Origin: Planctomycetota bacterium
GTDB lineage: Bacteria; Planctomycetota; Phycisphaerae; SM23-33
DNA: 40,781 nucleotides
Assembly (NCBI GenBank): GCA_024275995.1
Contig: JAJRYB010000064.1
Span: 1 to 40,781 of the forward strand
Direction of reading: 5' to 3'
In this document: positions 21,172 through 27,765 of the stretch, piece by piece
Position numbering within the stretch: the stretch's first letter is position 1
Layout of the letters: each line of letters begins with the position of its first letter
The notes under the pieces: model-generated
Databases searched by the model: none
Told to the model about the DNA's origin: nothing
What the model saw: only the letters and a program-made list of their open reading frames with translations
Position numbers and translations under genes: made by a program

Positions 21172-21246
21172 CCCATGTGGGCATTTTGACCTGTGCGCCT
21201 GGGCGACTTGACCATCGCGAGAAAGCCTTGCCCAAACGGTGAACCC

Positions 21247-22254
21247 ATGAACGATATCGACCAGCAAGCCGGTCGCAAGGACCGAAAACACAAATGGTTG
21301 CGATGGATCCTCGCCTGCGGGATCGCACTGGCCCTCTGCGCCGGTGGCGCCTATTACTACCTGCGTTTCGTCCGCGTGAATTTTCACGTCGTCATCGAGG
21401 GACAAGTCTACCGGTCCGCCCAACCCGGTGGGGAAACACTTCTCGGCTGGATTCGGAGCCGCGGTCTCAAGACGATTGTCAACCTTCGTGGAAGCGTAAG
21501 CGACGCCGAACGAGCCGCGACGAAAGAAGGCGGCGCCACCCTGGTGGTCATACGGTTCTCGGCGTATCGCCTTCCATCGCTCCCATCGCTGCGAAAGCTT
21601 ATCGAGGTGCTCGAAACCGCCGATCGCCCGATCCTCCTGCACTGCCGCGCCGGCGCCGATCGCACATCCATGGCGAGCGTGCTGGCGGCGATGGCGATAG
21701 GCGGGCAGGACTACCAGGCGGCGAGCAGCCAACTCTCCATGCGGTACCTGCGACTGGACGGCAGCCCGCAGCGCATCGCCGGTTTTCTCCAGCGATACGA
21801 GGCCTACTGCCGCAAGGAAAAGATCGATACCGGTGGCTGGAAACAATTCAGACGATGGGCGATGGAAACGTATCGGACTTACTATTACTACGTCCGCATC
21901 GACGCGCCGCGGAAGCTTTCCGCGCGACCGGGCGAGGTGCTCCGCGTTCGCCTGGTGATCCGCAACGACTCACACGAAACGATCCCCGCGTCCGATCCGG
22001 ACAAAACTTTCACCCTCGCCGCTTTCACCGGAAGCAGCGAGCAGGACGATCCGGACCGCGAATTCGGCCGGGTCATACTACCGAAGCGTGACATCCCGCC
22101 AGGTGGGAGCGTATCTCTCGATTACACCTTCGCCGCGCCGTCGCAAGCGGGCGTGTATCGTCTGCGATTCGATCTCATCGAGGAGAACCGCACGTGGTTC
22201 GCCCGCCAAGGTTCGCCGGTTCCTACCTGTGAGCTTGTCGTCTCCGGCGAGTAG
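21247..22254 (+). CDS. membrane-anchored dual-specificity/tyrosine phosphatase
   Basis: 335 residues. A transmembrane helix at about 17-38 is followed by a phosphatase domain (about 45-185) with signature HCRAGADRTS (Cys133 nucleophile, Arg139). IVNLRG and YRSAQP precede it as in tyrosine and dual-specificity phosphatases of the DSP/PTP family. The C-terminal part (about 215-335) looks like an Ig-like beta sandwich (RLVIRNDSHETIPAS, FDLIEENRTWFARQGSP), probably outside the membrane with the phosphatase. The combination suggests an exported or periplasmic phosphatase that may act on sugars or lipids instead of protein. ATG 21247 has only a weak Shine-Dalgarno sequence. It is convergent with the phosphohexomutase (17 bases between stops). 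Confidence 0.82.
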   Translation: MNDIDQQAGRKDRKHKWLRWILACGIALALCAGGAYYYLRFVRVNFHVVIEGQVYRSAQPGGETLLGWIRSRGLKTIVNLRGSVSDAERAATKEGGATLVVIRFSAYRLPSLPSLRKLIEVLETADRPILLHCRAGADRTSMASVLAAMAIGGQDYQAASSQLSMRYLRLDGSPQRIAGFLQRYEAYCRKEKIDTGGWKQFRRWAMETYRTYYYYVRIDAPRKLSARPGEVLRVRLVIRNDSHETIPASDPDKTFTLAAFTGSSEQDDPDREFGRVILPKRDIPPGGSVSLDYTFAAPSQAGVYRLRFDLIEENRTWFARQGSPVPTCELVVSGE

Positions 22255-24811: not shown

Positions 24812-26869
24812 ATGAGGACTCAATGGCGATTGGCGCTGATGCTGCTGTGCACGGCGGTCCTGGCGGGATGCGATCTGAACAGCAGGAACACCGGCGCCGA
24901 CGGTCTTTCGCTGCGCGATGAAATCGATCGTGCCGTTGCCGGCGTGTATCCGGCGCTGGTTCGTATCAGCGTGGTGATGGAAAAGCCCTCCGGTGGCAGG
25001 ATGCGTAAGTTTCGCGGGTCCGGCAGCGGGACGATTATATCGAAGGATGGATACGTCCTGACGAATTACCACGTCGCCGGCCGGGCGACGCGAATTGTCT
25101 GCCGCATGTCCAATCGCGAGGAGGTCGAGGCGCGCCTCGTCGGGCGCGATCCGATGACGGACCTCGCGCTGCTCAAGTTGGACCTGTCCACCCGGCGGAG
25201 CAAAACGCCGCTGCCCGTGGCGCGGTTCGGCGACTCGGACACGGTTCGCGTGGGAGACACCGTCCTTGCGATGGGAAGCCCCGCCGGTCTGAGCCAATCG
25301 GTAACGCTGGGCATCGTCGCCAACGCGGAAATGGTCCTTCCGGGCGGCAGGTTGCAACAGGCAGGCGAAAACGTCGGGGCGCTGGTTCGATGGATCGGAC
25401 ACGACGCGGTGATCTTCCCCGGTAACAGCGGCGGCCCGCTGGTGAACCTCGCCGGCGAAATTATCGGCGTCAACGAAATCGGCGTCGGAAGCCTTGGAGG
25501 CGCCATCCCCGGGAACCTCGCCAAGAGTGTCGCCGAGCAACTCATCAAAAACGACACCGTCAAGCGCGTCTGGACGGGGCTTCAGTGCCAGCCTCTGCTG
25601 AAGAACATGCCGGACGTAAAGGGCGTGCTCGTCGCGGGGGTCGCGAAAGAGTCCCCCGCCGCCAAGGCGGGCGTTCAGCCGGGCGACGTTATCACGCATT
25701 TTGACGGCGTAGCCGTACACAGCCGGACGCGCGAGGAAATGCCACTGTTCAACCGGGTGGTCCTCTCCACGCCAGTCGGAAAGAAAGTCGCTATCGACGT
25801 CCTGCGCGACGGGAAAAACAAGACGTTCTCACTCACGACGGTCGTCCGCGAACCGGCACAGGGTAAAAGTCGCGAATTGCGGCGTTGGGGGATCACCGCT
25901 GCGAACCTCACCCGCGCTTCGGCGCGTGCGCATCGTCGTCCGGACAAAAATGGCGTCCTGGTGGGAAGTATCCGCTCGGGTGGACCGGCGAGCGAGGCGA
26001 AACCCGCTCTCAAGGCGGGCGACGTTATCGTGAAGGTGGGCGATACGCCGGTGACCAATCTTGCGGATCTGATCGCGGTGACGGACAAGATCACCCGCGG
26101 GAAGGACCAGCCCCAGCCGACGCTGGTCGCCTTCGAGCGCAGAAAGTACAAGGCACTGACCGTGATTCGCATCGGTAGCCCCGCAGACGAAGATAAACCC
26201 GAGCGTGCGAAGAAGGCCTGGCTGGGCGTAAGCACGCAGGTGCTCACGCGCGAGCTGGGTAAGGCGCTGGGCCTTAAGGGCAAACACGGCGTTCGTGTGA
26301 CACGGGTCTATCCCGAGACCACCGCCGCCGAGGCGGACATCCAGGTTGGAGATATTCTTCTCAAACTGGACGGGCAGGTTATTTCCGCGCGCCAGCCCGA
26401 AGATACGGAAGTATTCGACTACCTTGTTCGCCAATACAAGATCGGCGCCGAAGTCGACCTGTCGATCGTGCGCGACGGAAAACCGAAAACGCTCACCGTC
26501 AGGCTCGAGGGACGTCCCAAGCCGCCCTCGGAACTCAAGCGGTACAAGCACGAGGACTTCGAGTTCGCCGCCCGCGACCTTGCCTTCGCCGATAAGGTGA
26601 ATCGCGAACCTTCCGAACGTAAAAACAAGGGCGTGCGGATTGCGAGCGTCCAGTCGGCTGGATGGGCGGCGCTGGCGGGACTGGCGACGGGTGACATTCT
26701 TCTGAAGGTCGACGGGCAGGAAGTCGCAGACATCGCCGGATTGAAAAAGATAATGAAAAAGATCCGCGAGACGAAACCCAGGCAGGTCGTTTTCTTCGTT
26801 CGCCGAGGCATCCATACCCGGTTTGTTGAACTCGAGCCGGACTGGAAAGCGGCAATCGGCGCGAAATGA
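24812..26869 (+). CDS. lipoprotein HtrA/DegP-like serine protease with four PDZ domains
   Basis: 685 residues. Lipobox signal MRTQWRLALMLLCTAVLAGC (Cys20) predicts anchoring to a membrane facing the periplasm. The trypsin-like domain (about 33-245) has His87 (NYHVAG), Asp117 (TDLALLKLD) and Ser206 (GNSGGPL). Four PDZ-like domains follow, about 254-345, 358-455, 468-566 and 585-675 (VQPGDVITHFDG, LKAGDVIVKVGD, IQVGDILLKLDG, LATGDILLKVDG). Typical HtrA/DegP have one or two PDZ, so this one is unusually long. Role: degrading or checking misfolded envelope proteins. The start has AAGGA at 9 bases; the frame is open to 24710. Its stop overlaps the first possible start (26866) of the next gene by 4 bases. 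Confidence 0.92.
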   Translation: MRTQWRLALMLLCTAVLAGCDLNSRNTGADGLSLRDEIDRAVAGVYPALVRISVVMEKPSGGRMRKFRGSGSGTIISKDGYVLTNYHVAGRATRIVCRMSNREEVEARLVGRDPMTDLALLKLDLSTRRSKTPLPVARFGDSDTVRVGDTVLAMGSPAGLSQSVTLGIVANAEMVLPGGRLQQAGENVGALVRWIGHDAVIFPGNSGGPLVNLAGEIIGVNEIGVGSLGGAIPGNLAKSVAEQLIKNDTVKRVWTGLQCQPLLKNMPDVKGVLVAGVAKESPAAKAGVQPGDVITHFDGVAVHSRTREEMPLFNRVVLSTPVGKKVAIDVLRDGKNKTFSLTTVVREPAQGKSRELRRWGITAANLTRASARAHRRPDKNGVLVGSIRSGGPASEAKPALKAGDVIVKVGDTPVTNLADLIAVTDKITRGKDQPQPTLVAFERRKYKALTVIRIGSPADEDKPERAKKAWLGVSTQVLTRELGKALGLKGKHGVRVTRVYPETTAAEADIQVGDILLKLDGQVISARQPEDTEVFDYLVRQYKIGAEVDLSIVRDGKPKTLTVRLEGRPKPPSELKRYKHEDFEFAARDLAFADKVNREPSERKNKGVRIASVQSAGWAALAGLATGDILLKVDGQEVADIAGLKKIMKKIRETKPRQVVFFVRRGIHTRFVELEPDWKAAIGAK

Positions 26870-26901
26870 AATCCGGAAAACCCCGAAACAGGAGAACGCG
26901 A

Positions 26902-27765
26902 GTGAAACGAACGCAACTTATCGTATTGGTCTTATCGGTGGTGGCGATTGCGGGTTTCGTCACCGCGGCCCAGCCGATATCCACGGCCGCACGAAAACTG
27001 TACGAAACGCACCAGGATTCCGTCGTTTTCGTATCCGCCGTCGCCAAGATGGAAATCTCCGCACGCGGAAAGACGGCGAACCGCGAACTCAAACGCGAAG
27101 CTATCGGCACGATCATAGACGCCAGCGGTTTGACGGTCCTGTCCTATTCCAACCTGGACCCGAGCGGCGCTTTAAGCTCGCAGTTTTCGGTCAAGGCCGA
27201 GTTCGCCGACGTCAAGATCCGCCTCGCCGACGGTACGGAAGTGCCGGCGAAGATCGTCCTGAAAGATACGGACCTGGACCTTGCCTTCGTCATGCCGGAC
27301 GCCGACAGCGACGAGGCCGAGGATGTAGAATTCAAGCCGTTGGACCTGGGCAACAACGTCCAGCCCAAGATACTGGACGAGGTTATCTCGCTTGGCCGGT
27401 TGGGCAACAACCTGAGCCGCCAACCCGTCGTCTTCATCGGGCGGATCGCCGCCATCGTCAAGAAACCGCGCGACTTCTACCTCACTACGAGAGCGGCGAT
27501 GGGCGGCCCGCTTTTCTCGTCCGACGGAAAACTTATCGGAATCGCGGTGCGAAGGATAACCAACGGGCGTCCCAGCGGGACGATCGTCGTTCTTCCTGCC
27601 GGTGACATTCAGGAAGTCGCCGCCCAGGCGCTGGACAAAACCAAGCCCGAACCCGCCACGCAGCCCGCAACGCAGCCCGCCAGCTTACCAGCGCCCAAAG
27701 ACAAGGCCGACGCGCAGGTAGATGATAAAACGCCGGCCGACAAAGTGGCCCCGATGGACGAATAG
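26902..27765 (+). CDS. catalytically inactive HtrA paralogue (pseudoprotease)
   Basis: 287 residues with signal peptide (about 1-23, MKRTQLIVLVLSVVAIAGFV) and a trypsin-like fold without PDZ. Aligned with the neighbour, the His is replaced by Ser83 (VLSYSNLD against VLTNYHVAG), the Asp127 remains (DLDLAFVMP) and the Ser is replaced by Met200 (AAMGGPLFS against GNSGGPL). So it cannot be a serine protease by the usual mechanism. The tail (about 248-287) is Pro/Ala/Gln/Asp-rich (ATQPATQPASLPAP). GTG 26902 has AGGAG at 7 bases; an ATG at 26866 that overlaps the htrA stop (ATGA) is possible. As the second gene of the operon it may regulate, recruit or scaffold the active protease (inference). Confidence 0.85.
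   Translation: MKRTQLIVLVLSVVAIAGFVTAAQPISTAARKLYETHQDSVVFVSAVAKMEISARGKTANRELKREAIGTIIDASGLTVLSYSNLDPSGALSSQFSVKAEFADVKIRLADGTEVPAKIVLKDTDLDLAFVMPDADSDEAEDVEFKPLDLGNNVQPKILDEVISLGRLGNNLSRQPVVFIGRIAAIVKKPRDFYLTTRAAMGGPLFSSDGKLIGIAVRRITNGRPSGTIVVLPAGDIQEVAAQALDKTKPEPATQPATQPASLPAPKDKADAQVDDKTPADKVAPMDE

Follow-up and report, generated by a model that had tools for sequence, protein, structure and literature searches.

A stretch of 40,781 nucleotides from a bacterium of the Planctomycetota (GTDB lineage Planctomycetota; Phycisphaerae; SM23-33; GenBank assembly GCA_024275995.1, contig JAJRYB010000064.1, positions 1 to 40,781; hereafter the window) carries on its forward strand a gene for an HtrA-type serine protease with four PDZ domains (HtrA4, protein P0001), directly followed by a gene for an HtrA paralogue without the catalytic triad (the dead paralogue, protein P0002). 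An earlier reading of the sequence alone (the original prediction) had proposed that the two form an active protease and pseudoprotease regulator pair. HtrA4, a lipoprotein of 685 amino acids, is encoded at 24812..26869 (+) from an ATG at 24812. Its lipobox was read by eye as LAGC, and Pfam matches comprised Trypsin_2 (99.1 bits, cut-off 27.6) and four PDZ_2 stretches. The protease domain, with boundaries set by us at residues 55-245 (24974..25546), contains the catalytic codons H87 (25070-25072), D117 (25160-25162) and S206 (25427-25429), and is followed by PDZ1-PDZ2 (residues 250-455; 25559..26176) and PDZ3-PDZ4 (residues 461-685; 26192..26866). A trypsin-like domain with a His-Asp-Ser triad followed by PDZ domains is the arrangement of an HtrA-type protease; the score against the model TIGR02037 degP_htrA_DO (403.6 bits) lay below its cut-off of 416.2, and HtrA4 was therefore filed as HtrA-type and not as a member of the Do family. 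In 79 aligned four-PDZ HtrAs, the window's included, the catalytic Asp and Ser were present in 79/79 and the His in 78/79, the remaining row being cut at that point. The predicted HtrA lipoprotein with four PDZ domains was thus recovered with its coordinates, an intact triad, a lipobox and all four PDZ_2 stretches.

The dead paralogue is encoded at 26866..27765 (+). From the ATG at 26866, which overlaps the stop codon of HtrA4 (ATGA), the protein would have 299 amino acids; a GTG at 26902, with AGGAG at 26890-26894 seven bases upstream, appeared by eye to be as good or better and is the likely start; from there a simple signal peptide ending in VTAA-Q can be read by eye. The protein consists of this signal peptide, one degenerate trypsin-fold domain and a Pro/Ala-rich tail. 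Trypsin_2 (44.4 bits, cut-off 27.6) was the sole Pfam domain above its cut-off, and no PDZ domain reached the Pfam cut-off in P0002. In the alignment, the triad columns are occupied by Ser95 at the His position (27148..27150), Asp138 at the Asp position (27277..27279) and Met212 at the Ser position (27499..27501), so P0002 lacks the triad. In a separate profile alignment to HtrA chains of the PDB, the same family columns again faced the catalytic His and Ser; the predicted replacement of these residues by Ser and Met holds in two alignments.

Relatives of the dead paralogue were collected in several ways. A search of 100 genomes with P0002 gave matches in 27 (the window's own included) at E<=1e-4, and nine other genomes had matches at E<=1e-15, in eight of which a four-PDZ HtrA lay directly upstream; the weaker matches were other HtrA-like proteins. 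An alignment of eleven relatives was then compared with 397 genomes of the class. Matches numbered 51, counting the window's own, and fell in 47 genomes; the weakest had E 1.2e-37, and a gap followed up to 2.7e-20. Six candidates per genome were scored in this search, and six or seven in the class and phylum searches generally, so that all such counts are lower bounds. A second set, the named loci, was found by the PDZ3-4 part of HtrA alone with one peptide pattern (109 relatives, 80 loci kept). The class and named rows overlap in species (e.g. L146, L148 and L166 with G001, G029 and G002).

The original prediction had named triad-bearing orthologues of the second gene as the finding that would speak against it. 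None was found: full triads were present in 0/51 class rows and 0/82 rows from named genomes (the window being included in each). At the His column there was no His in either set, whereas Asp was kept at its column in 44/51 class and 59/82 named rows. Ser occupied the nucleophile column in 0/51 and 1/82 rows, and the lone Ser (L187) stands without the His and the Asp. Conserved residues lie elsewhere in the domain. In an alignment of 80 dead rows, from which L183 (cut by a contig end) and L185 (a near copy of L184) were left out, P201 and R202 were invariant, D134 was present in 99%, R178 in 95%, G213 in 94% and P215 in 91%; K200 (81%) forms a family signature, K200-P201-R202 (27463..27471, +), with the two invariant residues. 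A single-chain AlphaFold2 model of P0002 built from an 80-row alignment had a mean pLDDT of 88.9, mostly 96-98 at residues 41-260, and its best structural matches were the protease domains of HtrA proteins: DegQ (Z 20.5), DegP (20.3), Deg5 (20.0) and MamO (19.4). Together with the Trypsin_2 match, the confident model and these matches at Z ~20 agree with the earlier statement that the second protein keeps the fold. A hydrophobic N-terminus was seen in 126/131 dead frames and 107/116 HtrA frames of the overlapping class and named sets, by a simple hydropathy test and not a signal-peptide predictor; this and the signal peptide of P0002 bear out the predicted export. The dead genes are under purifying selection: among 18 hand-chosen pairs, several of them with dS >1, dN/dS was 0.05-0.24 for the dead genes (15 values computable, three not) and 0.03-0.10 for the HtrA protease domains (14 computable, four not).

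The two genes keep close company. Among the 397 class genomes, the dead family (E<=1.2e-37) was found in 47, the four-PDZ HtrA (PDZ3-4 profile, E<=1e-60) in 47, and both in 46 (Fisher p 5e-58, the relatedness of the genomes being ignored). One genome had the HtrA alone (G371), and this hit is truncated at base 2 of its contig, at the end where a partner gene would be expected; one other had the dead family alone. Lack of co-occurrence, the second finding that would have counted against the pair, was thus not seen. When sampling was by the dead family, a four-PDZ HtrA gene in the same orientation immediately preceded 40 of the 50 frames other than the window's, by our criterion. The ten unlinked frames included one whose HtrA is cut by a contig end (L110), one second tandem copy (L094) and three second copies in genomes that also contain a linked pair (L042, L108, L109). 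When sampling was by the HtrA, a dead gene lay downstream on the same strand in 70 of the 78 named loci with a usable HtrA, and in both loci with a cut HtrA. At the remaining eight loci a dead-family match was present elsewhere in the assembly in every case, at E 2e-73 to 4e-46 for seven of them (the match of L151 starts at the first base of another contig); the eighth, L194, was recognised as a locus of the class genome G275, which has one too. In a further 14 loci, chosen mostly for long frames at the dead match and including three whose contigs were already among the named loci, the HtrA was directly upstream in 14/14. Co-occurrence, linkage and the lost triad strongly support the view that an active HtrA is paired with a conserved paralogue that is itself non-catalytic, and conservation of both the pair and its residues excludes chance.

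At six named loci several dead genes follow one HtrA: four in L210, three in L177 and two each in L142, L149, L187 and L199. The arrays of L210 and L177 are tandem, divergent dead paralogues, as if dead subunits were diversifying. Loci L228, L229, L234, L240 and L242 are most likely the same as L210, L177, L181, L204 and L178. In the Verrucomicrobiota sample, a gene with two dead domains was observed beside an HtrA4 and a dead gene (L237:3213-5531, L238:4055-5659, L243:3953-5572).

Sister arrangements were found in which the PDZ domains are distributed differently. A second dead family, type B, has two PDZ domains behind its dead domain; none of its frames has His at the catalytic column, and hence none has a full triad. 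Of 25 type-B frames, 11 adjoin a two-PDZ active HtrA and one adjoins a cut HtrA in the stretches fetched. The genome of the window has a type-B protein of its own (497 amino acids with two PDZ domains, contig C79 47813-49306, L222:5814-7307), and no HtrA was found near its gene in the 12.5 kb read. In an arrangement seen at four loci, type C, a two-PDZ HtrA is followed by a gene for 715-836 amino acids with a PDZ3-4-like pair (L045:7195-9561, L048:2903-5050, L049:528-2720, L051:2200-4710). The N-terminal part of the type-C proteins aligns with the dead family (hhalign probability 95%) and the middle part does so weakly (72%); the type-C protein of L051 also has a LysM domain. A tree of 111 protease domains, made from a chosen subset by a quick method, unrooted and with long branches as a risk, separated 69 pseudoprotease rows from 42 active ones with an SH-aLRT support of 100; the 69 rows comprised the single-domain dead family (43 rows, support 83) and type B (26 rows, support 92), lying together. 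In a tree of 73 chosen PDZ pairs, likewise made by a quick method, PDZ1-PDZ2 of HtrA4 grouped with the PDZ domains of active two-PDZ HtrAs and PDZ3-PDZ4 with the pairs borne by the dead proteins of types B and C, the split having a support of 100. The PDZ3-4 model scored better for 26/26 type-B and 4/4 type-C pairs, and the PDZ1-2 model for 15/15 pairs borne by active HtrAs. The PDZ3-4 module therefore sits on the live HtrA in the arrangement of the window and on the dead protein in the sister arrangement.

HtrA proteases are best known as homo-oligomers that are regulated through PDZ domains and peptides. The original prediction had held that a protease and pseudoprotease pair of this type was not a described system, which is too strong for the kind as such, because proteolysis by the magnetosome HtrA MamE is known to require its non-catalytic paralogue MamO (PMC4794232). 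The two pairs are alike in combining an active HtrA with a non-catalytic paralogue of HtrA fold. MamO is described there as keeping His and Asp, with Thr for Ser, and as carrying a di-His metal site as well as a transporter domain of the TauE-like type, whereas P0002 lacks the His and the Ser, has no second Pfam domain (a TauE-like domain gave no Pfam match up to E 1) and belongs to a family without a conserved His. Scores against the NCBIfam models were far below their cut-offs of 800 for both P0001 with MamE (NF040960, 207.6 bits) and P0002 with MamO (NF040961, 13.5 bits). A looser parallel is Arabidopsis Deg5, a PDZ-less protein without detected protease activity that acts synergistically with the PDZ-bearing Deg8 (PMC3640471). 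A PDZ-less partner stands beside a PDZ-bearing HtrA in that case too; in contrast to the pair described here, the triad of Deg5 is intact, Deg8 has one PDZ domain against four in HtrA4, and both act in the chloroplast. In Clostridioides difficile, the pseudoprotease CspC is reported to activate the related active protease CspB, but these have a subtilisin-like fold and function in spore germination (PMC4619724). P0001 resembles HtrAs of the DegP/DegQ/DegS type in its protease and PDZ domains, as does P0002 in its predicted fold; the four PDZ domains of P0001 and the accompanying dead gene set the pair apart from them. Inactive serine protease homologues of prokaryotes were counted in a survey of 2008 (PMC2605481), and many PDZ proteins were reported from planctomycetes (PMC6411480). 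No description of the present pair was recognised among the matches listed, in a search of titles and opening lines of open-access papers in PMC, subscription journals lying mostly outside it. The combination of an HtrA with a non-catalytic paralogue is thus known as a kind, from MamE-MamO and loosely from Deg5-Deg8, and the cross-phylum variant described here appears to be new.

In our reading, P0001 is the catalytic and P0002 the non-catalytic subunit of a single exported quality-control or processing protease, a heteromeric HtrA; we give this reading a probability of roughly 0.6. It is preferred because the dead paralogue combines an HtrA fold, an export signal and purifying selection with the near-constant company of HtrA4, and because a PDZ module has changed sides; the occurrence of PDZ3-4 on either partner suggests that both belong to one complex. 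The lipoprotein HtrA4 would do the cutting. HtrA protease domains form trimers, and mixed or stacked trimers would therefore be the simplest geometry. The dead paralogue, with the HtrA core fold kept, would most likely bind HtrA protease domains in such trimers, and together with PDZ3-PDZ4 would there present substrates or set the active conformation of the catalytic subunit. Its action might lie in presenting substrate, in gating access to the protease or in keeping the activation loops of its live partner in place. Physical contact, stoichiometry and the regulatory effect of the dead subunit are what we infer here. As a first guess, with the sign of the effect left open, we lean towards activation of HtrA4, because MamO, itself non-catalytic, activates MamE (PMC4794232).

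Several observations weigh against a heteromeric HtrA. Where both dN/dS values were available (14 pairs), that of the dead gene exceeded that of the HtrA domain in 13, which points to weaker constraint. Genome G003, which is 95% complete, has an unlinked dead frame and no four-PDZ HtrA. In G275, G310, G340 and G385 the dead frame is unlinked and the four-PDZ HtrA lies elsewhere in the genome, and adjacency is not visible at eight named loci (one at a contig end, one being G275). These non-adjacent pairs mean that a fixed operon is not required, and that linkage can break while co-occurrence holds. None of the 14 loci inspected for a fusion of HtrA and dead domain had one, some loci have two to four dead genes for a single HtrA, and 13 of the 25 type-B frames had no HtrA neighbour in the stretches fetched. 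Exchange of the PDZ module could also mean shared substrates instead of contact. For the closest known parallel, an interaction of MamE and MamO could not be detected by the authors (PMC4794232).

Among the alternatives, the dead paralogue might be a free-standing substrate adaptor or holdase, forming an oligomer of its own and no stable complex with HtrA. Such a role would be compatible with a fold that is kept while the triad is lost, with co-occurrence that persists without gene linkage, and with the divergent tandem copies of L210 and L177, which would suit different specificities. A PDZ3-4 module that sits on either partner suits a subunit better, and a dead gene found for 78/78 HtrA loci checked is likewise easier to reconcile with a subunit than with an optional adaptor; we regard the adaptor as unlikely. 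Still less probable is a ligand- or metal-binding scaffold, as in MamO, tied to the HtrA by pathway only. The protease domain of MamO is indeed among the structural matches of P0002, and it binds metal through two histidines (PMC4794232), but neither His nor Cys is conserved at any column of the dead family (at best in 19% of the 80 rows for His and 15% for Cys), and P0002 remained remote from the MamO model. A metal site of the MamO type was accordingly rejected for the family. Catalysis by the paralogue through non-canonical residues, such as those near the conserved R178, K200 and R202, is very improbable: the strong conservation of P201, R202, D134 and R178 speaks for it but fits a structural or interaction role equally well, and the position of the former nucleophile has no conserved Ser, Thr or Cys. 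Gene decay or a sequencing error in the active-site region, to which the lost triad and one or two stops inside the matched stretch of 12 of the 51 class matches might point, has a negligible probability and was rejected on dN/dS, tree and triad counts, since the family forms one clade across several phyla under purifying selection with no full triad in any row, and since those 12 matches lie in open frames of 263-319 amino acids and reach near the frame end, so that their stops are most likely terminal.

The record titles of the named loci span at least four phyla and include Planctomycetota, Verrucomicrobiota, Armatimonadota with Abditibacteriota, Acidobacteriota (Thermoanaerobaculia) and Hydrogenedentota, and one further locus is labelled Bacillota, a label that may be misassigned; this list is a minimum, being obtained with one peptide pattern, and labels of metagenome-assembled genomes can be wrong. 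With the centre genome counted each time, the dead family was found in 50/392 genomes of the window's phylum at E<=1e-30 (80/392 at 1e-15, type-B proteins included), in 12/194 genomes of the phylum of a Verrucomicrobiales record and in 34/101 genomes of the phylum of a Fimbriimonadales record.

In the window, the pair is accompanied by genes for a phosphoglucomutase/phosphomannomutase, an Fe/Mn superoxide dismutase, an alanine racemase, a semialdehyde dehydrogenase, a tRNA pseudouridine synthase and the beta subunit of DNA polymerase III. At 21193-22254 lies a gene whose product has a DSP-PTPase-like phosphatase domain and, as read by eye, a hydrophobic segment at its N-terminus. No recurrent third gene was seen among 18 flanking proteins scanned (8 upstream, 10 downstream) out of 19 upstream and 19 downstream picked, for which the longest nearby frame was taken and some may have been mis-chosen; the families varied by locus, and two of the downstream proteins had no match at all. 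A reading as a defence system was rejected: with PADLOC, P0001 matched protease domains (41 bits at best) and P0002 matched nothing.

Taken more widely, the arrangements suggest an ancient and widespread heteromeric HtrA, a proposal that we make tentatively and hold at somewhat less than even odds. Its catalytic subunit would be joined by one to four dead domains, encoded by separate genes, by tandem genes or as dead-dead fusions, and four PDZ modules would be shared out between live and dead subunits in ways that vary with lineage. The product would be a ring, mixed or stacked, in which the dead subunits determine activity. As a caution for annotation, a protein whose sole match is to a trypsin-like peptidase domain may be a non-catalytic subunit. 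If the heteromeric HtrA is real, it would offer many natural pairs for testing how a dead domain controls a live one, and control by pseudoproteases would be a general principle of proteolysis in the bacterial envelope, beyond magnetosomes.

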